The notes under the pieces are model-generated. The model made no database searches, was not told the DNA's origin, and saw only the letters and a list, made by a program, of their open reading frames with translations. Shown here piece after piece: positions 15,347-64,000 of a stretch of DNA of 64,000 bases. The translations under genes and the position numbers were made by a program. Positions within the stretch are counted from its first letter, which is position 1. Each line of letters opens with the position of its first letter. This stretch comes from Butyricicoccus pullicaecorum DSM 23266 (GTDB lineage: Bacteria; Bacillota; Clostridia; Oscillospirales; Butyricicoccaceae): positions 124,001-188,000 of the forward strand of contig NZ_FUXW01000002.1 of the NCBI RefSeq assembly GCF_900167005.1, given 5' to 3'.

Positions 15347-15610
15347 ATGAATGACTGCATCAAAGCTGAAATGGAATACCGCGAATGGCGTGAATGCCCG
15401 CTTTGGTATTGCGTGAAGACGCTGCTCAGAGCGGACGGCAAGATGGAAAGCGAGATTGTTTCCGACGAGAAAACCAAAATCCCCATCGCCATTCAGAGCC
15501 TTGAGAAACCGCAGGATGGCGTGTTTGAGGACGCGAGCGGCACGACATATTACACCTACCATCAGGGATATGAGGCGGCAGCGAAGCAGGTAGCCGCCGC
15601 GAGCATATAG
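15347..15610 (+). CDS. Hypothetical protein (87 aa) under its own promoter
   Basis: Begins MNDCIKAEMEYREW, 9 bases after AAGGAGG and about 45 bases after a consensus promoter. Acidic, with YREWRECPLWYCVK and a C-terminal TTYYTYHQGYEAA. Single-gene unit between two terminated operons and beside the switch; may be a lysogeny-expressed or moron-type gene. Function unknown. Confidence 0.7.
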   Translation: MNDCIKAEMEYREWRECPLWYCVKTLLRADGKMESEIVSDEKTKIPIAIQSLEKPQDGVFEDASGTTYYTYHQGYEAAAKQVAAASI

Positions 15611-15646
15611 GCAAATGCGGCAGACCTTTTCAGTCATTTGCAACTC

Positions 15647-16236: not shown

Positions 16237-16647
16237 ATGGACGGGTTCGGAGAACGACTTAGACGGTTGAGAAAAGACTGCGACATCACACAGAGCCAGT
16301 TGGCAGAAGTCATCGGCGTTGTGCCGTCCGCAATCGGGAAATACGAGCGCATACCGCAGGCGTTCCCGAGCGTGGAGGCGTTGATAAAGATAGCCGACTA
16401 CTTCAATGTGAGCATCGACTATCTGCTGAGAGGGACGCAAACCGTCCCTGCCGTTGAGAACAATATCAGCGGCCAGCTAACAAACAGCCCATTCATCCAA
16501 GCCAACCACGGAGGCGTGGTGATTAACGGAGAGCAATCCATTTCGCCGGAGGCGATGGAGCTGCTGCATATCTACGAACAGCTGAGCGGCAGGGAGCGGT
16601 TAAAACTGCTTAACTTTGCCGTCGAGTTAGAGGAGGGTACAAAATGA
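16237..16647 (+). CDS. XRE-family repressor (CI-like)
   Basis: 136 residues. N-terminal HTH (DITQSQLAEVIGVVPSAIG) with the usual YFNVSIDYLL end at about residue 64, followed by a Gly/Asn-rich linker and a short helical C-terminus (LSGRERLKLLNFAVEL), as in many Firmicutes phage repressors lacking a peptidase domain. Ribosome site AAAGGAGG. Its stop overlaps the ATG of the next gene (ATGA), so repressor, unnamed protein and integrase are translationally coupled. Confidence 0.88.
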   Translation: MDGFGERLRRLRKDCDITQSQLAEVIGVVPSAIGKYERIPQAFPSVEALIKIADYFNVSIDYLLRGTQTVPAVENNISGQLTNSPFIQANHGGVVINGEQSISPEAMELLHIYEQLSGRERLKLLNFAVELEEGTK

Positions 16648-17078
16648 AAGTATCACTGGACATTAAAAAGAAGTGCGCATTCTTCTGGCTGCGGGCAATC
16701 CGCTCCGCACGTATCGACAAATGCTGTGCGAAATGCTTTATTGGCGACGCCTTTCACGAGATATTCGAGGGGACGCGCTACAAAGACAAGGCTCATGTGG
16801 AGCTGGACATTGAACCGGACGCAAGGGTAAAAGCCTACTATCTCTGCGGGCTGAGCAACGGCTTTAAGTATGACGAGAATACGCACGTGGCTTTCGTTCC
16901 GTGCGAGGGACAGAATATTGAGATTGAAAATGACCGGATTCGGCTGGTGATTACGGATGCTCGCCAGATTGACTTCCAAAGCTACCAGCCCCACCCAGAG
17001 GGCGAATTTACCGAGGAGCAGCGCACCTGCCGTAACTGGATCTTCGCCAACTACCTGTTAGACGGGATGCCGCTGTGA
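16644..17078 (+). CDS. Unnamed phage protein family, copy 2 of 3
   Basis: 144 residues. Same landmarks as the other two copies: FFWLRAIRSARIDKCCAKCF near residue 13, AYYLCGLSNGF, NTHVAFVP, a DFQSY-P-P-G-FTEEQRTC block and CRNWIFANYLLDGM. Overlaps the repressor gene by ATGA and the integrase gene by GTGA, so it is made with the lysogeny/integration genes, a different context from copies 1 and 3. No membrane or secretion signal. Function unknown; Cys conservation hints at metal binding. Confidence 0.85.
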   Translation: MKVSLDIKKKCAFFWLRAIRSARIDKCCAKCFIGDAFHEIFEGTRYKDKAHVELDIEPDARVKAYYLCGLSNGFKYDENTHVAFVPCEGQNIEIENDRIRLVITDARQIDFQSYQPHPEGEFTEEQRTCRNWIFANYLLDGMPL

Positions 17079-18478
17079 GACGGGCAGCCCTCTATATCCG
17101 CGTTTCCACGCTGGAACAGGCACAAGAGGGCTACTCCGTAGGAGAGCAACGGGAGCGCCTGATTGCGTACTGCAAGGCGCAGGATTGGCTCATAGCGGAC
17201 ATATATGTGGATGGGGGCTACACAGGCAGCAACCTGAACCGCCCCGGCATCCAAAAGCTGATGAGCGAGACAGAGAAGTTCGATGTGGTGCTGGTCTACA
17301 AGTTGGACCGGCTCTCCCGCTCGCAGCGGGACACACTGTATCTCATCGAGGAGATATTCAGGCCGAACAAGGTGGATTTCGTCTCCATGCAGGAGAGCTT
17401 CGATACCTCGTCCCCGTTCGGCAAAGCCATGATAGGTCTGCTTGCGGTATTCGCCCAGCTGGAACGTGAGCAGATAAAGGAGCGCACGTGGATGGGGCGA
17501 GTGGCTCGTGCCAAAACCGGGCTTCACCACGGAGGCGGGAACATCCCTATCGGGTATGACTACGAGGACGGCAAGCTCATCGTAAACCCATACGAGGCAG
17601 AACAGGTTCGGAAGATATATGAGTGGTATCTTTCCGGTTCGTCACTGAAAGCAATAACCGATAAATTGCAGGACGCGGGGTACACGAACAAGTACAGCAG
17701 CTACAATTCGTGGTCGAGCGTGAGAAACATCTTGGAGAATGAAACCTATATCGGGCGTCTGCACTTCGGAGATGTCGTTGTGGATCACGCGCATGAAGCG
17801 ATAATAACGGAGGAACAATTCAATGCCGCACAGATATTGCGTGGAAAGCGCAGAGAGCAGTTCGGGAGCCACGCTTTCCAATCCAAGCACGTGCTGACCG
17901 GACTTCTGTTCTGCGGACACTGCGGAGGCCGGTACTACCTGCGCAACACGGGGAAATACTCTTATTATGCCTGCTACTCCCGAACAAAGCAGATGAAGAA
18001 CATGATAAAGGACCCGAACTGCCAGAATAAGATATGGCGGGCGCAGGACTTGGAGCCTATCATTGAGGAAAAGATACTGGCGCTGCTGCGCAATCCAAAG
18101 ATTGCAGAGGAGCTTGCCGCCGGCAAGCCGAAAGCCGCAGCCCCGGTAAGCAAGAACACTGATATTGAGCGCCGCATCCGTGAGATAGACCGTCAGATCG
18201 GAAAGCTGATGGAGCTTTATCAGCAGGATGATATACCGCCCGAGCTGCTCGGTGAGAAGATAAACCGGCTGTACGGCGAGAAAACCGCATTGGAAAACTC
18301 CATCGCCCCGGTCGAGGAAACCAATGCTATGCCGCTCGATTTAGTGGCCGAGCTTATAACCAACGCTGCGGAAATATGGGACTTCGCCGATGAGAACCAG
18401 AAACGGCGCATCCTGCAAAGCCTCATATCCCGAATTGTCCTGACCGACGACCAAGTTGATATTGAGTGGGCGTTTTAG
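17075..18478 (+). CDS. int: Large serine recombinase (phage integrase)
   Basis: 467 residues. Resolvase domain: YIRVSTLEQ (nucleophile Ser near residue 11), QREGL-type helix, KLDRLSRS (catalytic Arg residues), and LLAVFAQLEREQIKERT. A recombinase domain follows (about 150-255), then a zinc ribbon beginning LLFCGHCGG and a coiled coil (IREIDRQIGKLMELYQQDD). This is the full architecture of phage integrases that insert without accessory factors other than a directionality factor. GTG start coupled to the upstream gene. It lies between early and lysis genes, where attP would be expected, yet far from the apparent prophage edge at 54.86 kb. Confidence 0.95.
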   Translation: MRRAALYIRVSTLEQAQEGYSVGEQRERLIAYCKAQDWLIADIYVDGGYTGSNLNRPGIQKLMSETEKFDVVLVYKLDRLSRSQRDTLYLIEEIFRPNKVDFVSMQESFDTSSPFGKAMIGLLAVFAQLEREQIKERTWMGRVARAKTGLHHGGGNIPIGYDYEDGKLIVNPYEAEQVRKIYEWYLSGSSLKAITDKLQDAGYTNKYSSYNSWSSVRNILENETYIGRLHFGDVVVDHAHEAIITEEQFNAAQILRGKRREQFGSHAFQSKHVLTGLLFCGHCGGRYYLRNTGKYSYYACYSRTKQMKNMIKDPNCQNKIWRAQDLEPIIEEKILALLRNPKIAEELAAGKPKAAAPVSKNTDIERRIREIDRQIGKLMELYQQDDIPPELLGEKINRLYGEKTALENSIAPVEETNAMPLDLVAELITNAAEIWDFADENQKRRILQSLISRIVLTDDQVDIEWAF

Positions 18479-18486
18479 CGCAAAAG

Positions 18487-49578: not shown

Positions 49579-50415
49579 TCAATTCCTTTGCTTGATTTTT
49601 TCGTTGCCGTTCAGCGGAGGCCCAAGCAGGTCACAGTCCGCGTCAGGCGGGTCCTGAACGTAGCCGTAGTGGTTTGCGTAACAATAGGCGCAACCGTTGC
49701 GGCAGGTGCTGTATGCGCCAATATCGACGCTCTCAACGCACTGGCACAGCCCGCGCTGATTGCGGTCTTTCGGTTTGTCAACGCCGAACATCTTGCCGTC
49801 TACGCAGCTGGAATGGGGCAGCCCCAGTTCCTCCGCACAGGAGGAGAGGACAATCCCGTGCTGGGCGGCTATCTCGGATAGCTGCTGCGCCAGCTCTGTC
49901 TGCTGCTCTGTTGTGAGCGGCTGGATATTCAGCGGTCTGAGGTCTACCGTGCGGTACGAATCCACGAAACTCATAACGGCCTTTGAGGTGTAGCCCTCCA
50001 ATTCCTCCGCGATTTTCGTGAACGCCCGAATGTGGTAGTCCCAAGTGTAGCGGTCATTCAGGAATACCGGGTCATATCGCCAGATGGCTTTATCAGCCCC
50101 GATTCTCTTGAACGCCGGTATCACGACCTCATGCTTGTCGGGGATGTTCTTCTCAACGTCCCGACCATAGGGTGTGATGGTGTACTGGAAATAATATTTG
50201 AATGCGTCCAGCTCGTGAATCCTGTTGAGCATAGGCGCGGCATTCTTAGTCCAAAAAACGAACCCGTCTACTTTGTCGGGCGTGAGTGAAACACGCCCGA
50301 CTTGTAGAGGGTTGTATGGGTTTCTAAGGAGGACAAATCCTTTCCCAACACGGTTGTAAAACCACTCGGAAAACAGTGCCGGGATGTCAGTCCGCCTGCT
50401 TGCGCTAACGATCAT
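49579..50415 (-). CDS. DUF1848 protein (radical-SAM-like)
   Basis: 278 residues. Typical DUF1848 start IVSASRRTDIPALFSEWFYN, FWTKNAAPMLNRI, and the C-terminal Cys cluster CVESVDIGAYSTCRNGCAYC with YANHYG. The family is predicted to bind an Fe-S cluster and SAM, though its reaction is unknown. Lies 4 bases before metK and overlaps the upstream unnamed copy 3 by ATGA, so SAM production and a possible SAM-using enzyme are made together. Confidence 0.87.
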   Translation of the reverse strand: MIVSASRRTDIPALFSEWFYNRVGKGFVLLRNPYNPLQVGRVSLTPDKVDGFVFWTKNAAPMLNRIHELDAFKYYFQYTITPYGRDVEKNIPDKHEVVIPAFKRIGADKAIWRYDPVFLNDRYTWDYHIRAFTKIAEELEGYTSKAVMSFVDSYRTVDLRPLNIQPLTTEQQTELAQQLSEIAAQHGIVLSSCAEELGLPHSSCVDGKMFGVDKPKDRNQRGLCQCVESVDIGAYSTCRNGCAYCYANHYGYVQDPPDADCDLLGPPLNGNEKIKQRN

Positions 50416-50882
50416 AACGGCATCCCATCCTTTAGGTAGTTTGCGAATATCCAGTTGCGGCAGGACCGCTGCTCTTTGGTGTAGTTCCCCGGAGGGTTCG
50501 GCACGTAATCCCAGAAGTGGATGCGGCGGGCATTCGTGATGTGCAGCTTGATTCTGTCGTTCTCAACTCTGACTTCGGAATTGCTGTCAGGCACGAATGC
50601 CACATGGGTGTTCAGCTCCCACACAAAGCCGTCGCTCAAACCGCAAAGGTAGTATGCTTTGGCGTGTGGGTGCTGCTTGACGATGATGTCAACGACGGCG
50701 TTGGACTTGTGCAGCGTTCCGTAATAGACGCGGTTGTCCTTGTCGCCGATGAAACATTTTGCGCAGCACTGCGATATATCCACGTTGCGGATGTCTCGGA
50801 GCCAGAAGAAGTTGCACTTCTTCAAAATCTCCAAGTGCAAGTGCATGGGCGCGTGCTTAATTATAAAATCCGACGGTATCAT
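50412..50882 (-). CDS. Unnamed phage protein family, copy 3 of 3
   Basis: 156 residues; the start at 50,882 has AGGAGAG 7 bases upstream, though homology with the other copies begins at an internal MHLHLEILKK. Shared landmarks: FFWLRDIRNVDISQCCAKCF, AYYLCGLSDGF, NTHVAFVP, YVPNPPGNYTKEQRSCRNW and ANYLKDGM. Closest to copy 1. Operon with DUF1848 and metK genes. The link of this copy to a predicted Fe-S/SAM enzyme and the conserved Cys make a metal-related role worth testing. Confidence 0.85.
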   Translation of the reverse strand: MIPSDFIIKHAPMHLHLEILKKCNFFWLRDIRNVDISQCCAKCFIGDKDNRVYYGTLHKSNAVVDIIVKQHPHAKAYYLCGLSDGFVWELNTHVAFVPDSNSEVRVENDRIKLHITNARRIHFWDYVPNPPGNYTKEQRSCRNWIFANYLKDGMPL

Positions 50883-53995: not shown

Positions 53996-54152
53996 TTTGG
54001 TCCACCTCCGCACCCGAATTTAACTTGACCGACCGGAGTATCAGCAGCAAGTCGTCTCGGGTTATGTTTTTCTCCACCAGCAAGGCGGTGAATTTGTCCA
54101 TATCTTCCGTAGTTCCAATAGGGATGAATCTCCTGAAAATTACGTCGCTCAT
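53976..54152 (-). CDS. Small helical protein (58 aa)
   Basis: ATG at 54,152, TAA at 53,978-53,976. The sequence MSDVIFRRFIPIG leads into a helix (TEDMDKFTALLVEKNITRDD) and a polar tail ending GEQNG. Preceded by GGAGG with a longish spacer and placed 2 bases after the MazG-like gene. A longer open frame in another register covering the same region is a shadow. Function unknown. Confidence 0.6.
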   Translation of the reverse strand: MSDVIFRRFIPIGTTEDMDKFTALLVEKNITRDDLLLILRSVKLNSGAEVDQNGEQNG

Positions 54153-54154
54153 TT

Positions 54155-54793
54155 TTAATCGTCAACCTCCAATCTCATGGACCACCGAGCGGCTTTCTCT
54201 CTGATAAACCGCTCAACTTCTTCACGGTCAAGCCCCAGCGCTGCCGCACAAAGAACAACGTCGGCGAACTCCTCGTTCAGCCTGTGCGACGCCTCGCTTG
54301 TGCTCACTGGCGTGGGGTTGCTCTTGTCTATCGTCCTGCGCAGTTTCAGCGCCGCTTGGGACAGCTCCGCTGCCTCCTCTGCCATGCCTGCCAACAACTC
54401 GCAGCAGCCAAGCAGGGTGTGAATTTCTGTGAGTTCATGCCCCCAATCTTCAAGAGCCTTTTCGATAGAGCTGCCAAACGCAAGCTGCTCAGGAATCACA
54501 TCAACCCTGATGTCGCCCAGAAATGTGTCATCGCAGCAATCTCCGGGTTCGACGGGGTAGAAGTCTGTCAGCATGATCTTTCGTTTCAGGTCTCTCGACG
54601 GGATAAAGCAATTTTGAACCGACGGCACAGTGCCATACCCGGTATCGGCGGGCCAGCCGACAGAGAAGTCTCTGCCGCTCTGCCGAAGAACATAACAAAG
54701 CTCGTTCAGCGAGAGAGGATTGCTCTTTGCAATCAACGGGTACTGGCTGATTTCGTTGCTGAACCACGCTTTGAATTCCGTGATGTCTTTCAT
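54155..54793 (-). CDS. MazG-like nucleotide pyrophosphatase domain protein
   Basis: 212 residues; start at 54,793 (MKDITEFKAWFSNEI) from AAAGGAG. The C-terminal half contains a MazG-type helical core: LLAGMAEEAAELSQAALKL (EExxE metal site) and LNEEFADVVLCAAALGL (the second acidic motif). Phage MazG-like proteins hydrolyse (d)NTPs or alarmones. The N-terminal 100 residues are of unknown fold. It is the last gene before the junction at 54.86 kb. Confidence 0.75.
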   Translation of the reverse strand: MKDITEFKAWFSNEISQYPLIAKSNPLSLNELCYVLRQSGRDFSVGWPADTGYGTVPSVQNCFIPSRDLKRKIMLTDFYPVEPGDCCDDTFLGDIRVDVIPEQLAFGSSIEKALEDWGHELTEIHTLLGCCELLAGMAEEAAELSQAALKLRRTIDKSNPTPVSTSEASHRLNEEFADVVLCAAALGLDREEVERFIREKAARWSMRLEVDD

Positions 54794-54819
54794 AAGTACC
54801 AACTCCTTTGCAAAATAGA

Positions 54820-54847
54820 AGAAACCCGCCATTTCTGGCGGGTTTCT
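54820..54847 (-). terminator. Hairpin near the junction, possible terminator
   Basis: Perfect 11-bp stem AGAAACCCGCC / GGCGGGTTTCT with 6-base loop; on the minus strand it is followed by TTCTATTTT. Would stop leftward transcripts coming from the repressor region, before the MazG-like gene. Confidence 0.6.
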
Positions 54848-54865
54848 GTATATAGGCAAATTCGG

Positions 54866-55180
54866 CTATCCATCAATTTCATGTGCAATTCCCCAATGCG
54901 TACGACAAGGATTATCCTCTTGCTCATCAAAAAGAATGACAGAACAGCGAGGATAATCTACCACGCAAGCCCCGTTGAACTGCTCGCAGGTAAAATTACT
55001 TAGTGGACGATTGGTTATCTGCGCAAAGTTCTGCACAGAATCAATCACAATCGGACGATTAAATTGGAGATCGGTAACATTCACATGTAAGGTGGAAATA
55101 GTCTGTGCCAACAATAGATCAGTTGCAACATTTTGCGCTTTGTCAAAATCAGGTCTCCGAGTGTCTGCTTCGAGTTTCAT
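54866..55180 (-). pseudogene. Truncated ImmA/IrrE-type metallopeptidase
   Basis: 104 codons. The C-terminal part of the product (CVVDYPRCSVILFDEQED, then THWGIAHEIDG and stop) follows ImmA/IrrE proteins up to the start of the zinc motif: HExxH should read HEIGH but is HEIDG and ends. The rest of the domain is absent, so it cannot be active. It overlaps the repressor gene (TAATG), the standard CI-ImmA arrangement. The break coincides with a change in base composition and is read as a junction with the neighbouring phage. Confidence 0.72.
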
Positions 55181-55848
55181 TAGTCCTCCTTGGGAATTCC
55201 AATAGCGTCAAGATAAATATCAATAGCATCATGGAAGTTTTCGATCAATCGAGTACGTTGTTGTCCGGGTATTTTTTCTAGATGTCTAGCGAGTAATTTT
55301 ATATTGTTATCATTTTCAACTTCTACATCATGATTATTATTTTGGTGAAGTTGTGAAGCCTCGTCATTACATTTAAGGTCCATGTTTGCTGGTTTATAAG
55401 GGCTGTGATAGATTTCATCTATTTTAATATTCAAGTAAGAAGCGATTTTTTCAGCTAATTTATATCGAACAGGATATAAGCCGGATTCAAGGTTTATCAG
55501 ATCTTCCTCGGTGAGAGCAAGATCACAACTCATTTTTTGTGCAGATATATTTAGATCTTCTCGGATTTGTTTAATAGTGCGACCATATAGTAACTTTGTG
55601 TCGCAAGACGATGAATTGTCATGTGGTGTTTCGAGGAAGTCTTGCATGTTTTTAAAAGAAGTTTTTCCCAGTAGATAATCTACGCTTACCTGAAAAAAAT
55701 TAGCTACTTTTGCTAATTTGTCGCCAGATGGAATGGTATTATCCCATTTTCTGATAGTTCCATTACCAAAATCCATCTTCCGCTCGAGAGAGGCCAATGT
55801 TTCGCCTCGTTCGGAACACATGTTTTTAATCTTTTCAACAAGAGTCAC
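55180..55848 (-). CDS. Phage repressor with two XRE domains
   Basis: 222 residues from GTG after GGAGG. HTH 1 at about 3-62 (TLASLERKMDFGNGTIRKWD, VSVDYLLG) resembles the divergent Cro-like protein; HTH 2 at about 88-146 (LNISAQKMSCDLALTEEDLI). A helical C-terminus follows, without a LexA-like peptidase domain, so relief probably depended on the ImmA partner encoded next. The gene is clearly AT-richer than its neighbours. Transcribed from the leftward promoter at 56,045-56,073. Confidence 0.87.
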   Translation of the reverse strand: MTLVEKIKNMCSERGETLASLERKMDFGNGTIRKWDNTIPSGDKLAKVANFFQVSVDYLLGKTSFKNMQDFLETPHDNSSSCDTKLLYGRTIKQIREDLNISAQKMSCDLALTEEDLINLESGLYPVRYKLAEKIASYLNIKIDEIYHSPYKPANMDLKCNDEASQLHQNNNHDVEVENDNNIKLLARHLEKIPGQQRTRLIENFHDAIDIYLDAIGIPKED

Positions 55849-55892
55849 GATAATCCCTCCTGCATTCCTGGAAGAAATTCGTCTACAGACTA

Positions 55893-55921
55893 TTGACTTT
55901 TAAAAAGAAGCATGGTAATAT
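55893..55921 (+). promoter_or_regulatory. Candidate rightward early promoter of phage B (TTGACT-17-TAATAT)
   Basis: TTGACT at 55,893, 17-base spacer, TAATAT at 55,916. Flanked by CGTCTACAG (55,880-55,888) and its near-complement CTATAGACG (55,926-55,934), likely operator halves. It lies 180 bases from the first rightward gene, leaving a long leader. Confidence 0.6.
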
Positions 55922-56044
55922 TAGCCTATAGACGAAAGTTCTTAGAGGATATGCACAAATGTGTAGTGTGTATGATATGTAGTATGTAATATATAGAAGA
56001 ATTATAGAGCAATCGTCTGGCATCGAAAGGATTGCTATACCCTT

Positions 56045-56073
56045 ATAATAGCTTATAAGCTAATCAAAGTCAA
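56045..56073 (-). promoter_or_regulatory. Leftward repressor promoter of phage B (TTGACT-17-TATTAT)
   Basis: Minus strand TTGACT (56,073-56,068), 17-base spacer, TATTAT (56,050-56,045). The spacer holds the perfect 14-bp palindrome TAGCTTATAAGCTA (56,049-56,062), a good operator candidate. Confidence 0.75.
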
Positions 56074-56104
56074 TAGCAAATTTTCTATTACTGGAGGTGA
56101 GTCA

Positions 56105-56401
56105 ATGAAATTGGATAAAATCATAGCACTGTGTTCGGCAGAAGGATCAAATCTTTCCCGTTTGGAAAGAGAATGCGGGCTTTCGAATGCAGCGATCCGT
56201 CGCTGGGAGAACAGTTCGCCCAGTGCAGAGAACCTGCAAAAGGTCGCAGATCATTTTGGGGTGTCTGTGGATTACCTGCTTGGACGCGACGACTATGATA
56301 TTTCGCAGGAAGCATTGGAGTGTGCTAAGCAGTACAGTGAACTCTCCAAGGAAAAACAGCAGCTGGTACAGATCTACATGAGCGTGATCTCAAAGCAATA
56401 A
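56105..56401 (+). CDS. XRE-family Cro-like regulator
   Basis: 98 residues. HTH (LSRLERECGLSNAAIRRWEN) and the FGVSVDYLLG end closely parallel HTH 1 of the divergent repressor, so both probably read the same operators. C-terminal helix (YSELSKEKQQLVQIYMSV). Starts after GGAGGTG. First gene of the rightward early operon of phage B. Confidence 0.88.
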   Translation: MKLDKIIALCSAEGSNLSRLERECGLSNAAIRRWENSSPSAENLQKVADHFGVSVDYLLGRDDYDISQEALECAKQYSELSKEKQQLVQIYMSVISKQ

Positions 56402-56415
56402 GGAGTGTGATGTCT

Positions 56416-57048
56416 ATGAATCATCTGGTATTTCTTACCCCGAACACGCAGGAGCCGTTTACCACTTCAGATGTGATCGCTGCGTTTGCCGGAATCCAAC
56501 ACCATACGGTGACGCGCCTGATTCAGCAGCATGAGGCCGACTTCAAAGAGTTTGGAATACTTCGATTTGAAATCGAAGAAATCAAGGGACGAGGACAACC
56601 TGCAAAGCGCTACCAGCTGAACGAAGAGCAGGCAACTTTGCTGATGACCTATCTCAAAAACACAGCACAGGTCAGGGCGTTCAAGAAAGAGCTGGTTCGC
56701 CAGTTCTACGCTATGCGTTTTGAGCTGTATAAAGTGCAGGCGGCCAAGATGGAGCGCCGGCCGGTGCGGGTCAGTATGACCGATGCCATTAAGGCGCTGC
56801 CCGATAGTCCGCATAAGGCTATGAAGTACGGACAGTACACAGACCTCGCGTATAAGTTGGCACTCGGCCGGACAGCAAGACAGCTGCGCAAAGACCGTGG
56901 TGCAGATAAGCACGCTGTTGCAAGCGACTACATGACCGCTGAAGAAATCTCGCTAGTTTCCGATGTCGAAAACAAGATTGGCGTACTGATCGGCATCGGC
57001 ATGGGCTATCAGGAAATCAAAGCTAAGCTGACGCGACGCATCATGTAG
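56416..57048 (+). CDS. Rha-family regulatory protein
   Basis: About 210 residues. The N-terminal Rha domain is typical: EPFTTSDVIAAFAGIQHHTV, FKEFGILRFEIEEIKGRG and the YQLNEEQATLLMTYLKNT motif. The C-terminal part (YTDLAYKLALGRTARQLRKD) is a second helical DNA-binding or oligomerization domain. Rha proteins act as antirepressor-like regulators. GTG 56,407 and ATG 56,410 are alternative starts; ATG 56,416 has the best spacing from AGGAG. Confidence 0.87.
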   Translation: MNHLVFLTPNTQEPFTTSDVIAAFAGIQHHTVTRLIQQHEADFKEFGILRFEIEEIKGRGQPAKRYQLNEEQATLLMTYLKNTAQVRAFKKELVRQFYAMRFELYKVQAAKMERRPVRVSMTDAIKALPDSPHKAMKYGQYTDLAYKLALGRTARQLRKDRGADKHAVASDYMTAEEISLVSDVENKIGVLIGIGMGYQEIKAKLTRRIM

Positions 57049-57073
57049 TAAAGCTTAGAAGGGAGGAATCCAT

Positions 57074-57265
57074 ATGCCTTGCGAGCCGCAAGCCTACCGT
57101 GCCAATTTGGAACGGATCAAAGCGACCTATCCGGACAAGGAGATGTTAAACATAGGAGAGGTCAAGCGGTTTCTGGGAATTGACCGCGAGGTAGTTAAGC
57201 GGCGATTCCCATTTCGAGAAAATTATATTTCAGTTGCCACACTGGCGTGGGAACTGAGCATTTAG
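57074..57265 (+). CDS. Excisionase-like small DNA-binding protein
   Basis: 63 residues: LNIGEVKRFLGIDREVVKRR is a short winged-HTH-like segment followed by FPFRENYISVATLAWEL, the usual Xis/MerR-like pattern in early phage operons. Ribosome site GGGAGG. Could be a recombination directionality factor or regulator. Confidence 0.65.
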   Translation: MPCEPQAYRANLERIKATYPDKEMLNIGEVKRFLGIDREVVKRRFPFRENYISVATLAWELSI

Positions 57266-57276
57266 AGGAGGATATT

Positions 57277-57576
57277 ATGAGTCAAAAAAGTGCAAAAGCT
57301 CTTCGGCGCATTGACCGGAGTAACGTCAACCTGGGCCTGCGCCTGGCGCGGCTGGAGGCCGATGTCCATGAGCTGAGAGCAAGCTGCAACGCGCTGGAGC
57401 ATCAGACTAGAATGGACCGCGCGAGCAGCCAGAGCATCGGCCGGGAGCTGTCAATCGTATCGCGTGAGCAGCGCAAGCGGATGGTTAGCCGCCGCCGTAT
57501 GGGCCTGCTGGTCGGATCGGCTGCGGTCATCATCTGCCTGATCGGCCTGTCGTTGAAGATCTTCGGGGTGCTGTGA
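57277..57576 (+). CDS. Coiled-coil protein with C-terminal membrane anchor
   Basis: 99 residues from the ATG after GAGGAGG. Basic N-terminus and a long heptad helix (RLARLEADVHELRASCNALE), then a single membrane span at the extreme C-terminus (MGLLVGSAAVIICLIGLSLK). Tail-anchored layout; role in the early operon unknown. Confidence 0.7.
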   Translation: MSQKSAKALRRIDRSNVNLGLRLARLEADVHELRASCNALEHQTRMDRASSQSIGRELSIVSREQRKRMVSRRRMGLLVGSAAVIICLIGLSLKIFGVL

Positions 57577-58043
57577 TGATGAATTTATCTGCGGAAGACA
57601 TCGCTTTTATTCAATCGTCCTACCGGGATGCTAAGTGTAAGTCTTCGCAGCGTAATAAGCTGCGTGAGCTGTATCCAGACATTGCACCAGCAAAGTTTGC
57701 TGAGCTGACTGGTACGTTGGTTTCAGATTGGGTGAAGGGTAAGAAGCTTGATACAGTAGACAAGCCCGCGCACGATCCGGTGCTGGACTGTTTGATCTTC
57801 CGCTCGTTCGACTTGATGGTTGAGCTTGCGCGAGACAAAGGGATTCCCATTGAAACCTGTTGGCGTGATGCGCTGAGCATGCTTGAGCGCCGGATAGCCA
57901 GCAAGCGTAAACAGATCGAGAACCATCCGGCGACTGAAGAATATGAGTTGATGATCGCGGCGATCCTGACCGCGGACGATCTGGACACAAAGAAAAAGTG
58001 CCCTGCGGGAGTGCCATCCCAACAGAGCACAGATAGTAAGTGA
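57573..58043 (+). CDS. Hypothetical early protein (156 aa)
   Basis: Overlaps the membrane-anchored protein gene. Mixed helical protein: MNLSAEDIAFIQSSYRDAK, a basic middle (DWVKGKKLDTVDKP), ERRIASKRKQIENHP and a polar end. No motif recognised; start among GTG 57,573 and the two following ATGs is uncertain. Confidence 0.65.
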   Translation: MMMNLSAEDIAFIQSSYRDAKCKSSQRNKLRELYPDIAPAKFAELTGTLVSDWVKGKKLDTVDKPAHDPVLDCLIFRSFDLMVELARDKGIPIETCWRDALSMLERRIASKRKQIENHPATEEYELMIAAILTADDLDTKKKCPAGVPSQQSTDSK

Positions 58044-58080
58044 TTCACCTGTATGATACCCCGAAGGAGGGGGATTGTCA

Positions 58081-58269
58081 ATGGAACGTAAGATTTTAAT
58101 CTCGGAATATTCCGACGGCACATTTCGCGCGATTGTCGATCAGGAAGAGAGTCAGGCAGAGATTCGGTACTGCGTAGAACCGAACAATGAGATCGCGTTG
58201 GCCATTTCCGACCTCAAGCTGTTTGCTGATTTCGTGGCGGATCTGGCGCGAGAGGAGGCAACCGAATGA
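58081..58269 (+). CDS. Small acidic early protein (62 aa)
   Basis: Start MERKILISEYSDGTFRAIV after GAAGGAGGGGG. Two beta strands then an acidic helix (FADFVADLAREEATE). Stop overlaps the ATPase gene (ATGA), so it may be an ATPase partner. Function unknown. Confidence 0.65.
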   Translation: MERKILISEYSDGTFRAIVDQEESQAEIRYCVEPNNEIALAISDLKLFADFVADLAREEATE

Positions 58270-60176
58270 ACACCATCATTTTGAAGTCCCTTGATCTGGA
58301 CCATTTCAAGGGCATTCGCTCGCTGCACATTGATTTTGACGGCGGTCTAACCTCGATCTATGGCGACAACGCCACGGGCAAGACTACAGTATACGATGCA
58401 TTGACTTGGCTACTGTTCGGCAAGGACTCGAGCGGGAGCGCCAAGTTTTCCATCAAGCCGACCGGCATTCCCGGTGTTACGCCGACGGTCACCGCCATCC
58501 TTGAGATCAACGGCGAACCTATGAAGCTGCGCAAGACGCTGCGTGAGAAGTGGTCGAAGCCCCGCGGCTGCGCGATCGCTCAGTACGACGGCGATACGAC
58601 CGAGTACACCATCGACGATGTGCCGCGCAAGGAAGGCGAGTACAAGCGCATGATCTCCGCTATCATCGACGAAGGCGTTTTCAAGATGCTGACCAATGTG
58701 CACGCTTTTGCGCGGGATTTGCCTTGGAAGGAACGTCGCAAGCAGCTGGCTGAGGTGTGTGGGTTGCCGGATGACAAAGCGATCCTTACCAGTGCGCCGC
58801 AGTTTGCCGAGCTGGCCGCGGCACTGGGTCGCCGGACGGTGGATGAGTACAAGTCCGTTCTGATGGCCGAGCGTAAGGGCGCAAACAAGACGCTGGACAG
58901 TCTGCCCATCCGCATTGACGAGTGCGAGCGCCGCGCCCGCGAGCTGGATGTGTTGGACTATGACAAGGCGCAGGTAGACAAGGCCGACCTGGAACTGCGT
59001 AAGGGCGCTATCTTGGCTGACCTGTCCCGGTTGGATGGCGGCACGCTGCTGACCGCTGCGGAGGCTGATGTCAAGCATTATGAGGCGGAGTTGAAAGCAC
59101 TGGACGCAGAGAATGCCGCGCACCGGGCAAGTCAGAATGTGCCTGTACAGGATGAACGGCCGGCTATTCAACGTAAGTTGGGAGAACTCTCTTGGACGTT
59201 TAACAACCTGAACAAGATGATGGATGACTGCGAGGAGAACGTCCTCAAGGCCGAAGAACAACTGGAGGAATACCGGGCGGTATGGCGCAGCATTCAGGCA
59301 GAGACCTTTACCGGCGATGTTTGCCCGACTTGTGGTCAGAAACTCCCGGCTGTCGAGGCGGCACAGGCCAAGGCTAAGTTTGAACAGGACAAGGCTGGGC
59401 GGGAAGCGCGACTGGTAAAGGACAGCGATCTGGTTAAGCAGAATCAAGCCGCGCAGAAGGCGCAGTACGCGGAGCTGAAAGAAAAGGCCGCGCAGGTGCG
59501 CGACGAATATGAGCAGATCAAGGCACAGCTGGATGCCTATATTCCGCCGGAAGCACCGGTCATTGAGGATTTACCCGGTTACGCGGAACGCCGCGCAAAG
59601 GTAATGCAGTACATCGAAGAGGCCCGCGAAAAGATCGGTCGTATCCAGTCCGATCAGCAGGCCGAGCGTGACCGGCTGAACAGCCAGCTGTCCCAGCTGA
59701 ATATAGAACTGACGCGCGTGTCTCAGGTGTTGGCAGCCAAGGCGCAGCTGGACGAGACCCGCGCTCGTGTGGATGAACTCAAGGCCGAGCAGCGCACACA
59801 GGCGGCAGCTCTTGAGGAAATCGACCGCAAACTTGCAATGTGTGAGGACTTCACCCGCTACCGTTGCCAATTTATCACCGATTCCGTGAATAGCCGGTTT
59901 AAGCTCGCCCGATTCCGACTGTTTGTCGAGCAGGTCAACGGCGGTGTGGCTGACTGCTGCGACGTGATGGTGGACGGCGTACCCTATGCCGATCTCAACA
60001 ACGCTATGCAGATCAATGTCGGCCTGGACATCATCGGCACACTGTCCGAGCACTATGGCTTGCGTGTACCGCTGGTCGTGGATAACGCTGAATCGGTCAC
60101 CAGATTACAGGAAATCAACACGCAGGTGATTCGCCTGGTCGTGTCTGAACAGGATAAGGAGCTGAGAGTCGTATGA
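58266..60176 (+). CDS. SbcC/SMC-like recombination ATPase
   Basis: 636 residues. Walker A IYGDNATGKTTVYDAL near residue 34 in the usual SbcC setting (LDHFKGIRSLHIDFDGGL before it). Coiled coil from about 190 to 510, interrupted at about 357 by CPTCGQKLP, a zinc-hook-like Cys pair. C-terminal VPLVVDNAESV is the Walker B/D-loop region. No SbcD-like nuclease gene lies next to it; the adjacent DUF669-like and MBL genes may supply DNA-binding and nuclease-like functions. Confidence 0.88.
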   Translation: MNTIILKSLDLDHFKGIRSLHIDFDGGLTSIYGDNATGKTTVYDALTWLLFGKDSSGSAKFSIKPTGIPGVTPTVTAILEINGEPMKLRKTLREKWSKPRGCAIAQYDGDTTEYTIDDVPRKEGEYKRMISAIIDEGVFKMLTNVHAFARDLPWKERRKQLAEVCGLPDDKAILTSAPQFAELAAALGRRTVDEYKSVLMAERKGANKTLDSLPIRIDECERRARELDVLDYDKAQVDKADLELRKGAILADLSRLDGGTLLTAAEADVKHYEAELKALDAENAAHRASQNVPVQDERPAIQRKLGELSWTFNNLNKMMDDCEENVLKAEEQLEEYRAVWRSIQAETFTGDVCPTCGQKLPAVEAAQAKAKFEQDKAGREARLVKDSDLVKQNQAAQKAQYAELKEKAAQVRDEYEQIKAQLDAYIPPEAPVIEDLPGYAERRAKVMQYIEEAREKIGRIQSDQQAERDRLNSQLSQLNIELTRVSQVLAAKAQLDETRARVDELKAEQRTQAAALEEIDRKLAMCEDFTRYRCQFITDSVNSRFKLARFRLFVEQVNGGVADCCDVMVDGVPYADLNNAMQINVGLDIIGTLSEHYGLRVPLVVDNAESVTRLQEINTQVIRLVVSEQDKELRVV

Positions 60177-60775
60177 AGTTAAAGGACAAGGTAAAGCCTG
60201 CTATCCCGCCGCTCGAAGCTGGCGTGTATATGGCGGTGTGCGTCGTGGTTGCCGATCTTGGCGATCAGTACAGTGAAAAGTTCAAGAAATCCAGTCGCAA
60301 GGTGGTTTTCTCGTTCGATATTCCCACGGAAACGGTTGAGGTCGACGGCGAGCAGAAGCCCCGCCAGCTGTCCAAACGCTGCACCTTTTCCGTGAGCAAG
60401 AAGGGCAACTTGAATAAGATGCTGAATGCTTGGATGAATGCCAACATGAGTGAGCAGGAGCTTGGAGAACTCGACCTGTTTTCCCTGATCGGTCGGGGTT
60501 GCCAGATCCGCGTGACGGTCTCCGAGGATGGCGCACACAACAACATCGAGGATGTGATGGCATTGCCCAAGGGGATGCCTGCGCCGCAGTCCGATACCGC
60601 TCCCATTACTTATGACATTGACGAAGATGGATTTACCGGTGAGAAATGGGACGCGCTGCCGGCATGGATGCGTGAGGCCATTGAAAAGAGCGACCAGTAT
60701 CAGCAGGACCCGCCGGACAAGCCGTTGGATATGCCCGCTGAATCCGCCGCACAGGAAGGGGCGTGCCCGATTTGA
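60173..60775 (+). CDS. DUF669-like replication/recombination protein
   Basis: 200 residues. PPLEAGVYMAVCVVVADLG, SRKVVFSFDIPTETVEVDG and LGELDLFSLIGRGCQIRVTV form an OB-like, beta-rich core as in phage DUF669 proteins, presumed single-stranded-DNA-binding partners of phage recombinases. A long acidic tail ends GACPI. Overlaps the ATPase and MBL genes, so co-translated with both. Confidence 0.75.
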   Translation: MKLKDKVKPAIPPLEAGVYMAVCVVVADLGDQYSEKFKKSSRKVVFSFDIPTETVEVDGEQKPRQLSKRCTFSVSKKGNLNKMLNAWMNANMSEQELGELDLFSLIGRGCQIRVTVSEDGAHNNIEDVMALPKGMPAPQSDTAPITYDIDEDGFTGEKWDALPAWMREAIEKSDQYQQDPPDKPLDMPAESAAQEGACPI

Positions 60776-61467
60776 CCTTTCGCAGTCTGGCCAGCAGCTC
60801 CAAGGGCAACGCCTATCTGGTGAGTGACGGCGAAACCGTCTTGCTCTTGGAATGCGGCCTGCCGTATAAGAAGCTGGCCGAAAAGTCTGGGTTTACCCTC
60901 ATGGACACCGCCGCTTGCTTTGTGACCCACGAGCACAAGGATCATAGTCATGCAGCGGAACAGCTTGTAAAGCGCGGTATTCCGGTATTCATGTCTGAGG
61001 GCACCGCACGGGCGCTGGAACTGTGGGATGCTGAGATTATCGAACCCAATGTTCCGATCATGGTCGGGGCGTTTCGAGTGATGGCTTTCCGTGTGGCGCA
61101 TGATGCAGCCGATCCGGTCGGTTATCTGATTGATGACACACGCACCGGCGAGCGCCTGATGTTCGCAGCAGATACTCGCAGCCTGTCGTATATCGTCCCG
61201 CACCTGACCTATATTGCCGTCGAGTGCAATTACGAAGAAAGCCTTCTGGCTGCATCCCAGCGCATCCCGGAGAGCCTGAAGAATCGCATCCGGCACAGCC
61301 ATTTTGAGGTCGAGGACGTGATCCGGTGGCTAAAAAAGCAGGACTTGTCTCACGTCCTGACCATCTACTTACTGCACCTGTCTGCTGGGAATAGCCGTGC
61401 TGCGGCATGGCAGACACGTTTCGTCCGGGAGTTTCCGGGCGTTGACATTCAGATTTGCAAGGAGTAA
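60763..61467 (+). CDS. MBL-fold metallo-hydrolase (YycJ-like)
   Basis: 234 residues from GTG. LASSSKGNAYLVSDGET (YycJ-type start), CFVTHEHKDHSHAAEQL (HxHxDH zinc motif), then FRVAHDAADPVGYLI, MFAADT (metal Asp) and a late HLSAGNS His. Close in pattern to small exonuclease-like MBL proteins such as YycJ/WalJ. In this operon it may be the nuclease partner of the SbcC-like ATPase, which is inference from context. Confidence 0.87.
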   Translation: MPDLTFRSLASSSKGNAYLVSDGETVLLLECGLPYKKLAEKSGFTLMDTAACFVTHEHKDHSHAAEQLVKRGIPVFMSEGTARALELWDAEIIEPNVPIMVGAFRVMAFRVAHDAADPVGYLIDDTRTGERLMFAADTRSLSYIVPHLTYIAVECNYEESLLAASQRIPESLKNRIRHSHFEVEDVIRWLKKQDLSHVLTIYLLHLSAGNSRAAAWQTRFVREFPGVDIQICKE

Positions 61468-61473
61468 AAGACC

Positions 61474-61725
61474 ATGAACGAAAAGCATTACGACAACCTG
61501 TGTGAGATCGCACAGAATACTAGCGAGCCCGGCGCACAGCTGTTTGCGGAGCTTGCCGCCATGCATTACGCGTCCTCTGGCAAGAGCAGTCGAGCAGATC
61601 ACGTCCAGAGGATTGCGCAGATGTATAACACACTGGACATTCTCTGCATTGTGCTCAATTGTGAAGACGAGGTGCAGGACATTGCAGAACAGCTTGCGGT
61701 TGCAAAACTTGCCTCTAAGGCGTGA
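61474..61725 (+). CDS. Small helical early protein (83 aa)
   Basis: MNEKHYDNLCEIAQNTSEP, an all-helical middle, and LCIVLNCEDEVQDIAEQLAV. Six bases after the MBL gene. A weak GC hairpin (61,733-61,752) follows. Function unknown. Confidence 0.65.
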   Translation: MNEKHYDNLCEIAQNTSEPGAQLFAELAAMHYASSGKSSRADHVQRIAQMYNTLDILCIVLNCEDEVQDIAEQLAVAKLASKA

Positions 61726-61773
61726 CACGATTGGGGCGGCTTCGGTCGCCCCGGCCTTTTAGGAGGTGAGAAA

Positions 61774-62532
61774 TTGGCCGAACGCAGAATGTTTTCCAAA
61801 AAGATCGTGGGCTCTGCCCGATTCCTTCGACTTCCGGCGACAGCCCGGCTGCTGTACTACGATCTTGGCATGCAGGCAGATGACGACGGGGTGGTCGAGG
61901 CATTCACCGTGCTGCAAATGACGCACGCAGATGAATCTGACCTTAACGCGCTGGTGGAGAAGGGATTTGTTCGGATACTTAATGATGATCTTGTTTCCTT
62001 GATTATCGATTGGAAAACTAACAATTTAATCAGGAAAGACCGTTATATAGCGAGTTTTTATCGTTATCTGTTGCCTGATTTTGATGGTATACCGGATGAC
62101 AACCAACGGTTAACCGACGGTAAACCAATGGTTAACCTAGGTAAGGATAGTATAGGTAAAGATAGGTTAGATCAGTATAGTATAGGTAAGGCGAGAGGTA
62201 AGGAGCCGGAACCATTCGACCCGAACGAATTCGATTCGATCAGAGAAGAATTTATAGGACGATTTTCGAGGGAACCAGACCGGGCGTTCTTACCGAGCAT
62301 CAAGGCTCATATGGTAGCAGGCAAGAGTGAGCAGGATGTGATAGAGGTCATCCGGCAAGCTGCTCAGCGCCATCCACATAACCCGGAAGCCTACATACTG
62401 GCCGCGCTCAAACAGTATGAGAGTAAGCCTCAGGAGCTACCAGCCGCCGCCCGCCCGCTGGAACCGTGGGAACAGGATTGGATTGCTGAGGTCCAGCGCA
62501 GGCGGGAGCAGATGGGAGGATACGCGACGTGA
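61774..62532 (+). CDS. DnaD-like replication initiator / replisome organizer
   Basis: 252 residues from TTG after AGGAGGTG. The N-terminal winged-helix region (RRMFSKKIVGSARFLRLPAT) matches phage replisome organizers; the C-terminal part is DnaD-like (IKAHMVAGKSEQDVIEVIRQ). They are joined by a low-complexity linker of about 40 residues (Gly/Lys/Asp-rich) whose DNA contains direct repeats and is much AT-richer, as expected of an origin inside the initiator gene. Confidence 0.82.
   Translation: MAERRMFSKKIVGSARFLRLPATARLLYYDLGMQADDDGVVEAFTVLQMTHADESDLNALVEKGFVRILNDDLVSLIIDWKTNNLIRKDRYIASFYRYLLPDFDGIPDDNQRLTDGKPMVNLGKDSIGKDRLDQYSIGKARGKEPEPFDPNEFDSIREEFIGRFSREPDRAFLPSIKAHMVAGKSEQDVIEVIRQAAQRHPHNPEAYILAALKQYESKPQELPAAARPLEPWEQDWIAEVQRRREQMGGYAT
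62102..62189 (+). other. Candidate replication origin (iterons in initiator gene)
   Basis: Two ACCAAYGGTTAACC repeats start 22 bases apart (62,102 and 62,124), each holding the palindrome GGTTAACC. Two copies of ATAGTATAGGTAA follow, 30 bases apart (62,147 and 62,177). The preceding 62,000-62,100 stretch is AT-rich. Arrangement resembles lambda-type origins within O-like genes. Confidence 0.6.
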
Positions 62533-63344
62533 AGAAGCAGATCTTCCGAACCGCCGACCAAAAGGAGTTTGTCGACCTGTTTGAGGGCCTCTGTATGCGC
62601 AGACATGCATGGCAGGCGTGGGGGGATTTCGTGGAGGCGTGCGCGATCGCGGTGTCGAACTCCTGTGATAAGGCCAGCCTAGACCGAAATAAACGGGAAG
62701 ATCGCTACCGGCAGATCATGGCCGGATACGAGCCAAAGGAGCAGGAAATCTTCCCGAAGCTCTTCGGCGCACTGACTGAGGCGCTGGAACAAAACCCGGA
62801 TCAAGATTTTCTGGGTGATATGTTTATGCGTCTGGAACTAGGCAGCCATTGGCACGGGCAGTTTTTCACACCGTACAACCTCTGCCGAGCCATCGCTGAG
62901 ATCCAGATGGGAGATGTCGAGGAGCAAATCCAGAAACGCGGATGGGTGAGCATCAACGACTGCGCCTGCGGTGCCGGTGCGCTGCTGATCGCTGCCCGCA
63001 ATGTCATGATGCGCGCGGGACAGGATTGGTCATCGGGGGCCCTGTTTGTTGCGCAGGACATCGACAGGACGGCGGCGCTCATGTGCTATCTGCAGCTGTC
63101 TCTGCTTGGATGCGCCGGGTATGTTGTGATTGCGGACAGTCTGCGATACCCGATCACCGGAAGCCTGCTGCGGCCGACACCGGCACCAGAGCAGGACATC
63201 TGGTACACACCCACCCTGTACTTGTCGCCGGTGTGGGGGTATCGAATGCTGTGGGAGAGGATCGAGTCTGTGCAGCAGTGCGAGACATCGGATCCAGAGC
63301 CAGAGGCCATGACCGACGTCGGGACGCAGCTGACTTTATTCTGA
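62529..63344 (+). CDS. N6-methyltransferase-like protein, catalytic NPPY motif not visible
   Basis: 271 residues from GTG. N-terminal helical region, GQFFTPYNLCRAIAEIQ (the FTP motif of HsdM-like methylases), then NDCACGAGALLIAARNVM as SAM motif I and LFVAQDIDRTAALMC as motif II. At the expected motif IV only ADSLRYP follows; no (N/D)PP(Y/F) is seen. So it may be inactive, non-canonical or a DNA-binding relative. Common phage family after replisome organizers. Confidence 0.75.
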   Translation: MKKQIFRTADQKEFVDLFEGLCMRRHAWQAWGDFVEACAIAVSNSCDKASLDRNKREDRYRQIMAGYEPKEQEIFPKLFGALTEALEQNPDQDFLGDMFMRLELGSHWHGQFFTPYNLCRAIAEIQMGDVEEQIQKRGWVSINDCACGAGALLIAARNVMMRAGQDWSSGALFVAQDIDRTAALMCYLQLSLLGCAGYVVIADSLRYPITGSLLRPTPAPEQDIWYTPTLYLSPVWGYRMLWERIESVQQCETSDPEPEAMTDVGTQLTLF

Positions 63345-63354
63345 GGAGGATGGT

Positions 63355-63570
63355 ATGGCAAAACGCAGACGGAAATACAAGGATGGTTCGTTGTGCTGGG
63401 ACTGTAAAAATGCAGTTCCTCACGGTGAGCATGGGTGCAGCTGGTCGGAATCGTTTGAGCCTGTGCCGGGATGGGATGCTCGCAGGAAGGACGTACTGAC
63501 TGGAGCCAAGAAAGATCGGATGGCTGAGAGTTATTTTGTGCATGAGTGTCCGGAATTTGAAAAGGGGTGA
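63355..63570 (+). CDS. Small Cys/Trp protein, possible zinc binder
   Basis: 71 residues. Basic start AKRRRKYKDGSLCWDCKNAV, then GCSWSESF and VHECPEF; four Cys could bind one zinc. Ribosome site GAGGAGG. Found with the methyltransferase-like gene in other phages as I recall it. Function unknown. Confidence 0.65.
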   Translation: MAKRRRKYKDGSLCWDCKNAVPHGEHGCSWSESFEPVPGWDARRKDVLTGAKKDRMAESYFVHECPEFEKG

Positions 63571-63576
63571 GCAATA

Positions 63577-63735
63577 ATGAATAACCGAGAGCGTGGATGG
63601 CCGGAGGACTGCCGGAAATGCAACCTGTACGACCACGAGAAGCAAGACTGTAGTATGCGGTCAATCAAGGATGCTGTGCCGATTTGTGAGTGCATGAGTT
63701 GCAAACGGTATGATTATTTGACGAGGGAGGAATGA
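63577..63735 (+). CDS. Small Cys-rich protein (52 aa)
   Basis: ATG 63,577 to TGA 63,735. Six Cys: DCRKCNLYDH, QDCSMR, PICECMSCKRYD. Similar in make-up to the preceding gene product, so a pair of small zinc proteins. Weak ribosome site (GGGGTGAGC). Confidence 0.6.
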   Translation: MNNRERGWPEDCRKCNLYDHEKQDCSMRSIKDAVPICECMSCKRYDYLTREE

Positions 63736-64000
63736 TGGTGAAATACTCCGGAGAAAGACCGCTTGATTATCAGGAGATTATAAACTGTCTTAGAGACCCG
63801 GACTGGAACGACGTTGAAGGAGATGACGGAACCTTACTGGATGATGCAGCGGATGCTCTCGAAAAGTCCGTGATTATCAAGGACATTCTGGGTAACGACT
63901 ATGGTCTCGATCGCCTGCGGGAGCTGGTGCAGGCTGATCGCGAGGGACGGTGCGTGGTGCTGAGCACTCCGATGCGGCCGATGATATGCAAGCCAAATGA
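63735..64000 (+). CDS. Hypothetical early protein (3' end outside window)
   Basis: Open to the window edge. Starts MVKYSGERPLDYQEIINC, just after GGGAGG; an ATG 3 bases earlier and a GTG 3 bases later are alternatives. Acidic helices (DDAADALEKSVIIKDI) and a LRELVQADREGR segment. Function cannot be given. Confidence 0.55.
   Translation, partial: MVKYSGERPLDYQEIINCLRDPDWNDVEGDDGTLLDDAADALEKSVIIKDILGNDYGLDRLRELVQADREGRCVVLSTPMRPMICKPN

Follow-up and report, generated by a model that had tools for sequence, protein, structure and literature searches.

A truncated immA gene beside a prophage repressor

Why should the gene for a putative anti-repressor stop in the middle of its own zinc motif, directly beside a prophage repressor? 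The question is raised by a window of 64,000 nt from Butyricicoccus pullicaecorum DSM 23266 (C33:124001-188000; genome of 3.27 Mb in 35 contigs), in which a minus-strand frame ends ...THWGIAHEIDG-stop. An initial annotation, made from the sequence alone, read this frame as an ImmA/IrrE gene coupled to a repressor and cut where HEIGH and the rest of the domain belong. It proposed that a phage on the left (phage A) interrupts a prophage on the right (prophage B) and that, if this came about by integration, the remaining ImmA segment and the integrase of B should lie left of the window. The one-base overlap of the two frames bears out the coupling, and both of the missing pieces were found where they had been predicted (Table 1).

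Table 1. Features of the nested locus. Positions without prefix are those of the window; others are given on contigs C33 and C20 or on locus L004.
Feature	Position	Strand	Remarks
Prophage B, left portion	C33:115,357-121,297		
Direct repeat of B, left copy	C33:115357-115402		46 bp, exact
Tyrosine integrase of B	L004:11462-12634		Phage_integrase; left of the ImmA C-half
ImmA C-half of B	L004:16992-17299		GHLYLGHQ...; about 2.7 kb left of the window, 57.6 kb from the N-half
Phage A, part within window	1-54874		whole element C33:121,298-178,876, 57,577 bp; about 2.7 kb left of the window
Partner half-site of phage A	C33:121298-121323 (L004:17298-17323)		left of the window; core L004:17298-17299
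PemK/MazF-like gene of A	L004:17662-18099		first sizeable gene within the left end of A
Lone att-like half-site	15588-15618		about 1.5 kb upstream of the integrase gene
Large serine integrase (LSR) of A	17075-18478	+	467 aa; Resolvase, Recombinase, Zn_ribbon_recom domains
Terminator-like hairpin	54820-54847	-	just inside A; faces transcription leaving the truncated immA of B
Right attachment half-site of A	54851-54876	+	arm TATAGGCAAATTCGGCTATCCATC plus core AA (TT on minus) at 54875-54876
immA N-terminal fragment of B	54866-55180	-	104 aa; ends HEI, then DG-stop
Prophage B, right portion	54877-64000	+	extends to C33:214,003
Repressor of B	55180-55848	-	222 aa; two HTH regions; overlaps immA by one base
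Cro-like HTH gene of B	56105-56401	+	divergent from repressor
Rha-type regulator or antirepressor of B	56407-57048	+	
Direct repeat of B, right copy	C33:214004-214049		46 bp, exact
tRNA-Pro(ggg)	C33:214005-214080		holds the right repeat copy
Second M78 gene	C20:104072		

On its own the ImmA fragment gave zero matches in Pfam, and against PHROG it aligned with two longer phage families over roughly their first 100 positions (phrog_19315, 1.6e-5; phrog_1914, 0.019). Its last two residues, DG, and the stop codon are encoded by the attP half of phage A. A Peptidase_M78 profile search of the genome gave matches in three places. The missing half lies at C33:121112-121300 on the minus strand, where Peptidase_M78 positions 50-122 are matched (E 3.9e-9), and it reads GHLYLGHQKDEDPEEIEAHFFAAQLLMP... 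in frame up to a stop at L004:16992. When the two flanks are rejoined at a 2-bp TT core, the frame runs without fault (...WGIAHEIGHLYLGH...) into a 203-aa M78 metallopeptidase with HEIGH whole, which matches Peptidase_M78 (PF06114) at E 1e-13. A comparison of the rejoined protein with solved structures returned a chance match at 0.6 and nothing else. The rejoined protein thus has an M78 domain with an HExxH motif, and its gene lies directly 3' of a phage-type repressor gene, a pair that recurs at locus L131 of another genome of the family, G049. By domain and gene order the rejoined protein is an anti-repressor of the ImmA/IrrE type, and cleavage of the repressor is its predicted activity.

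Gene content of the inner and outer prophages

The outer element has its own attachment sites, integrase and virion genes. Bounded by the 46-bp direct repeat, whose right copy falls within a tRNA gene, prophage B encodes a large terminase, a capsid (major head) protein and a tail protein in addition to its tyrosine integrase, and measures about 41.1 kb when A is subtracted. B may possibly be defective elsewhere. The two HTH regions of its repressor span residues 6-57 and 89-148, and the counterpart in G049 is shorter, at 149 aa. A search of phage records with window positions 54000-58000 returned six Streptococcus satellite phages, each covering at most 5% of the query; the sole similar DNA is at 56497-56690, in the Rha-type gene, with 70-74% identity to these satellites.

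The inner element likewise has an integrase and virion genes of its own. Its LSR matches Resolvase (2.7e-38), Recombinase (1.8e-17) and a zinc ribbon (1.6e-13), and A further encodes DNA polymerase A (DNA_pol_A, polA), a VapE-type protein, a portal and a large terminase. With a terminase and a portal encoded in its own genome, A counts as a full-size phage and not as a helper-dependent satellite. Two similar proteins of ~150 aa (FFWLR...CCAKCF) are encoded far apart in A, at 16644-17078 and 50412-50882. The initial annotation had also described the DNA right of the junction as AT-rich. This is true of the immunity region at about 55.0-56.0 kb (GC 0.366), and does not extend to a general contrast between the phages, with B further right at about 0.49-0.58 and A at about 0.50-0.61; as the AT-rich stretch is the immunity region alone, we rejected composition as a marker of the junction.

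Junctions and attachment sites

Read in the sense of immA, the right joint passes from ...CATGAAATT directly into GATGGATAG..., and the left joint from ...GACCATCTT into GGACATCTA.... Exchange at TT between the two joints yields CATGAAATTGGACATCTA, which codes for HEIGHL in an open frame, and the combined inner ends give TATAGGCAAATTCAGCAGACCATC-TT-GATGGATAGCCGAATTTGCCTATA, a dyad-symmetric attP of ~50 bp whose halves form an inverted repeat with 20 of 24 positions identical. A scan of the window for dyads of the form 24+2+24 found one other equal score, a terminator hairpin at 18485. The exact restoration of the frame, together with inner ends matched to this degree, argues that the splitting of immA is not a matter of chance. 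The core positions at both joints therefore set the length of element A given in Table 1. No complete attP pattern was found in viral contigs.

A short direct repeat had been expected near 54,860-54,880. Directly shared sequence at the joint does exist, at about 3 bp, and the longer match between the ends is inverted; the direct repeat is so short because the enzyme is a serine integrase. A short core and a dyad-symmetric attP of ~50 bp at the element ends, with little direct and longer inverted matching, is in its sequence the layout of a large serine integrase, and phage A is predicted to recombine through its LSR between attP and attB. That A interrupts B by integration, as first proposed, is upheld by the exact rejoining of attB and attP and by the LSR encoded in A. 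Taken whole, the explanation that A inserted into the immA gene of B by LSR recombination, leaving a nested prophage, is one that we hold with high confidence.

Two other origins of the joints were weighed. An old deletion or rearrangement that was not site-specific, with the left C-terminal fragment an unrelated remnant, would suit the frequent occurrence of decayed genes in prophages and the mere 3 bp or so shared directly at the joint. Against it, the two fragments rejoin in frame into a whole M78 protein, a serine integrase is encoded between the joints, and the matched inverted arms recur in relatives with the same core spacing; with the rejoined pair of attB and attP in hand, we rejected this origin as very improbable. 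An assembly chimera, in which two separate prophages were wrongly joined, comes to mind with an assembly in 35 contigs. Still, a random misjoin would not place both joints on recombination half-sites that recur in independent assemblies, and we consider misassembly more improbable still.

The intact form of the gene was also sought among relatives. Among 71 other genomes of the family, the rejoined ImmA has one relative, in G049 (L131, 43% identical), which is full length (WGIAHELGHLYLEH) and directly follows a repressor gene whose product resembles that of B at its C-terminus. In all five other genomes of the genus the DNA of the joint region is absent, and a search of the viral collection with the ImmA fragment gave five pattern stretches and zero relatives. 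With G049 intact and both the genus DNA and viral relatives absent, we found no support for the cut immA as an old inherited form; homologous phages with the same truncated gene, named beforehand as the observation that would speak against integration, did not turn up. The proposed search for an uninterrupted B thus succeeded as far as the repressor-immA pair of G049, the one relative among those 71 genomes, and yielded no joint-region DNA within the genus.

Of the terminator-like hairpins in the junction region, two were found where 1.2 were expected from shuffles, and similar ones are visible at the same end in two related phages, G087 and G090. The lone half-arm within A has counterparts at the related loci L019:4802, L020:8537 and L026:4291. 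In all four places it lies in the gap separating convergent genes, upstream of the repressor and integrase genes, and lacks the spacing of a TT/AA core. It may be a relic, or a candidate regulatory binding site.

Insertion sites of related phages

Relatives of the A integrase were found in one genome and 18 viral contigs (L012-L030) at 43-82% identity. Among the 11 LSRs compared, that of A and those of ten relatives, one pair of relatives is identical and identity is otherwise 72-83%. Across the 87 genomes of the family, 27 including the host itself matched at E 1e-60, the others with just 36-46% identity. The att arm was sought in nine records of LSR relatives and was present in five, and after further searches seven sites of A-like phages are known: phage A itself, G087, G090, G092, G447, G448 and G449. 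The core TT (or AA) is found 24 bases into the arm at all seven, and the first sizeable gene inside the att end is in each case PemK/MazF-like, at a distance of no more than about 0.7 kb (loci L065, L066, L067, L086, L088, L137 and L004). In the G087 phage (C2, L076/L077) the PemK side has AA and not TT, which gives its core dinucleotide the reverse orientation to that of the other phages. In the three phages for which both features could be located, the integrase gene and the att end are 19.8 kb (A), about 20.4 kb (G087) and about 20.1 kb (G090) apart. LSR genes usually adjoin the att end, and a spacing of ~20 kb is unusual for the class.

Two-sided rejoining is possible in G087 and G090, and one side is seen in G092, G447, G448 and G449. 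In G087 the target is another serine recombinase (LSR) gene of 489 aa, whose C-terminus is restored by rejoining, only the last residues being taken. In G090 a 169-aa frame beside a Y-family polymerase is restored; we take its product to be YolD-like, and no model of Pfam or NCBIfam matched it. The target in G447 is hsdS (type I specificity, 3.7e-62), which adjoins hsdM; phage replication genes forming a separate group lie about 1.4 kb away. In G448 it is a phage tail gene (phrog_1398) beside the tape measure, sheath, portal, terminase and lysin genes of a second phage. The G092 target is a gajB (Gabija) fragment (7.4e-38; profile positions 215-422 of 458), probably broken beforehand, as its match to the profile begins at position 215 and remnants of further genes lie upstream. 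The G449 site has only 108 bp outside the element and falls outside the six identified targets. From the flanking genes, three of the seven sites (phage A here, G447 and G448) lie within or beside genes of another phage. No LSR gene was seen in the fragments G447, G448 and G449 (0/3), so these are grouped only by the arm, the PemK gene and, where seen, the order of replication genes. Four of the six targets come from IMG/VR, which retains viral-looking flanks, and cases of a phage within a phage are for this reason over-represented.

Several arm matches were set aside. Seven of 11 arm stretches (L092-L098) lie in other contigs without a phage-A neighbourhood and were dropped; two of them, L092 and L097, have AA at the place of the core and were excluded on neighbourhood alone. 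The match at L138, which sits in an unrelated gene, was also dropped. An arm search of 394 genomes of the order matched two, the host and G418, where an exact arm copy with an AA core (G418:C19:18966-18986) is surrounded by chromosomal genes and has no gene of phage A in its vicinity; it may be a chance palindrome or a scar. Arms were sought at the 19 closest of 31 PemK loci (L099-L117) and occurred at five of the 19, every one already counted or G449.

Proposed mechanism and its alternatives

At the level of sequence, the insertion of A is shown by its joints to be site-specific and exactly reversible. In the proposed course of events, B would have entered the tRNA-Pro gene through its own tyrosine integrase, and A would later have inserted by recombination of its dyad-symmetric attP with an attB on the HEIGH zinc-motif codons, with exchange at TT. 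With the break between HEI and GH, the protein loses its second zinc histidine and all residues beyond, including the downstream active-site part, so that the split ImmA would be unable to cleave the B repressor and B would not be inducible by that route. Gene order and protein family suggest that the B repressor depends on ImmA, and from these we infer a functional locking of B by A: B would stay repressed until A excises, excision would rebuild immA exactly, and induction of B would then depend on A. The hairpin at the edge of A would end transcripts leaving the split immA. The second M78 gene of the genome might act on the B repressor.

The nesting may also be real and carry no regulatory meaning, a loosely targeting LSR having hit a dispensable gene, with B inactivated thereby or already defective. 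The seven different sites used by A-like phages favor such an account, as do known multi-targeting LSRs, one with a TT core (PMC10083194), and the E. coli prophages that other phages have entered, described as apparently defective (PMC8112680). B nevertheless retains its integrase, both att sites and the genes for terminase, capsid and tail, and immA would be rebuilt if A excised precisely. We regard this account as evenly poised between being right and wrong.

A further idea is that the LSR of the A lineage preferentially targets anti-phage defence genes and those of competing mobile elements, so that embedding would silence a competitor until A leaves. This seems unlikely to us: its basis is six targets, of which four come from a collection favoring viral flanks and one was a remnant already. 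For now we favor loose targeting followed by survival in dispensable genes, since Durrant et al. 2022 report no target enrichment within or near anti-phage genes for LSRs outside the multi-targeting clade (PMC10083194).

Comparison with known systems

ICEBs1 is released when ImmA cleaves its repressor, ImmR (PMC8960796), and Clostridium prophages with ImmR/ImmA-like modules are known (PMC11318856). As in ICEBs1, the repressor gene of B is followed by a gene for an ImmA-type metallopeptidase and is divergent from the early genes, whereas ICEBs1 ImmR has 127 residues (PMC8960796), the B repressor has 222 with two HTH regions, and immA is split here.

Prophages within prophages have been described in E. 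coli (Nakamura et al. 2021, PMC8112680), and these share with A the site-specific integration of a complete phage inside another prophage. Their attB derives from loci of the host chromosome, next to effector genes, in contrast to the lysogeny-control gene of B; the text of that paper does not contain the word 'serine', and the enzyme here is a serine integrase. Satellites lodged in late genes of their helpers make up a clade whose tropism recurs (Tommasini et al. 2023, PMC10111431). Such helper-embedded PICIs resemble A in occupying a prophage gene that is restored on excision, and the repeated use of prophage genes by their integrase clade recalls the A-like insertions; they are, however, satellites in late genes (PMC10111431), while A is a full-size phage with a serine integrase that splits an early regulatory gene. 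The LSR of A resembles multi-targeting LSRs in its TT core and in the entry of related enzymes into several unrelated genes (PMC10083194). It differs from them in that Pfam-A at E 0.001 gave no match to DUF4368, which was our criterion for the multi-targeting clade, and in that its relatives, at 72-83%, fall below the 90% clustering used in that study. The arrangement is also like active lysogeny, or a phage regulatory switch, in which a prophage interrupts a gene that excision restores; there the gene is the bacterium's own, and here it belongs to a rival phage. In the open literature, with most subscription papers outside its scope, we found no phage that splits the ImmA-type anti-repressor of another phage at the zinc motif. 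Nested prophages are already known, and what appears new here is a full phage splitting the immA of another.

If the proposed locking holds, one prophage would govern in cis whether its rival can be induced, with the anti-repressor of B available only in A-free cells, and the order of induction of the two phages could be tested directly. Taken together, the A-like insertions suggest a group of phages that frequently settle in competitors' genes, and this would carry the principle of helper-embedded satellites over to full phages. Should there be no more to it than relaxed targeting and survival in dispensable genes, the locus would still offer a clean insertion, and the sites together a compact collection of paired attP and attB sequences for a serine integrase family.
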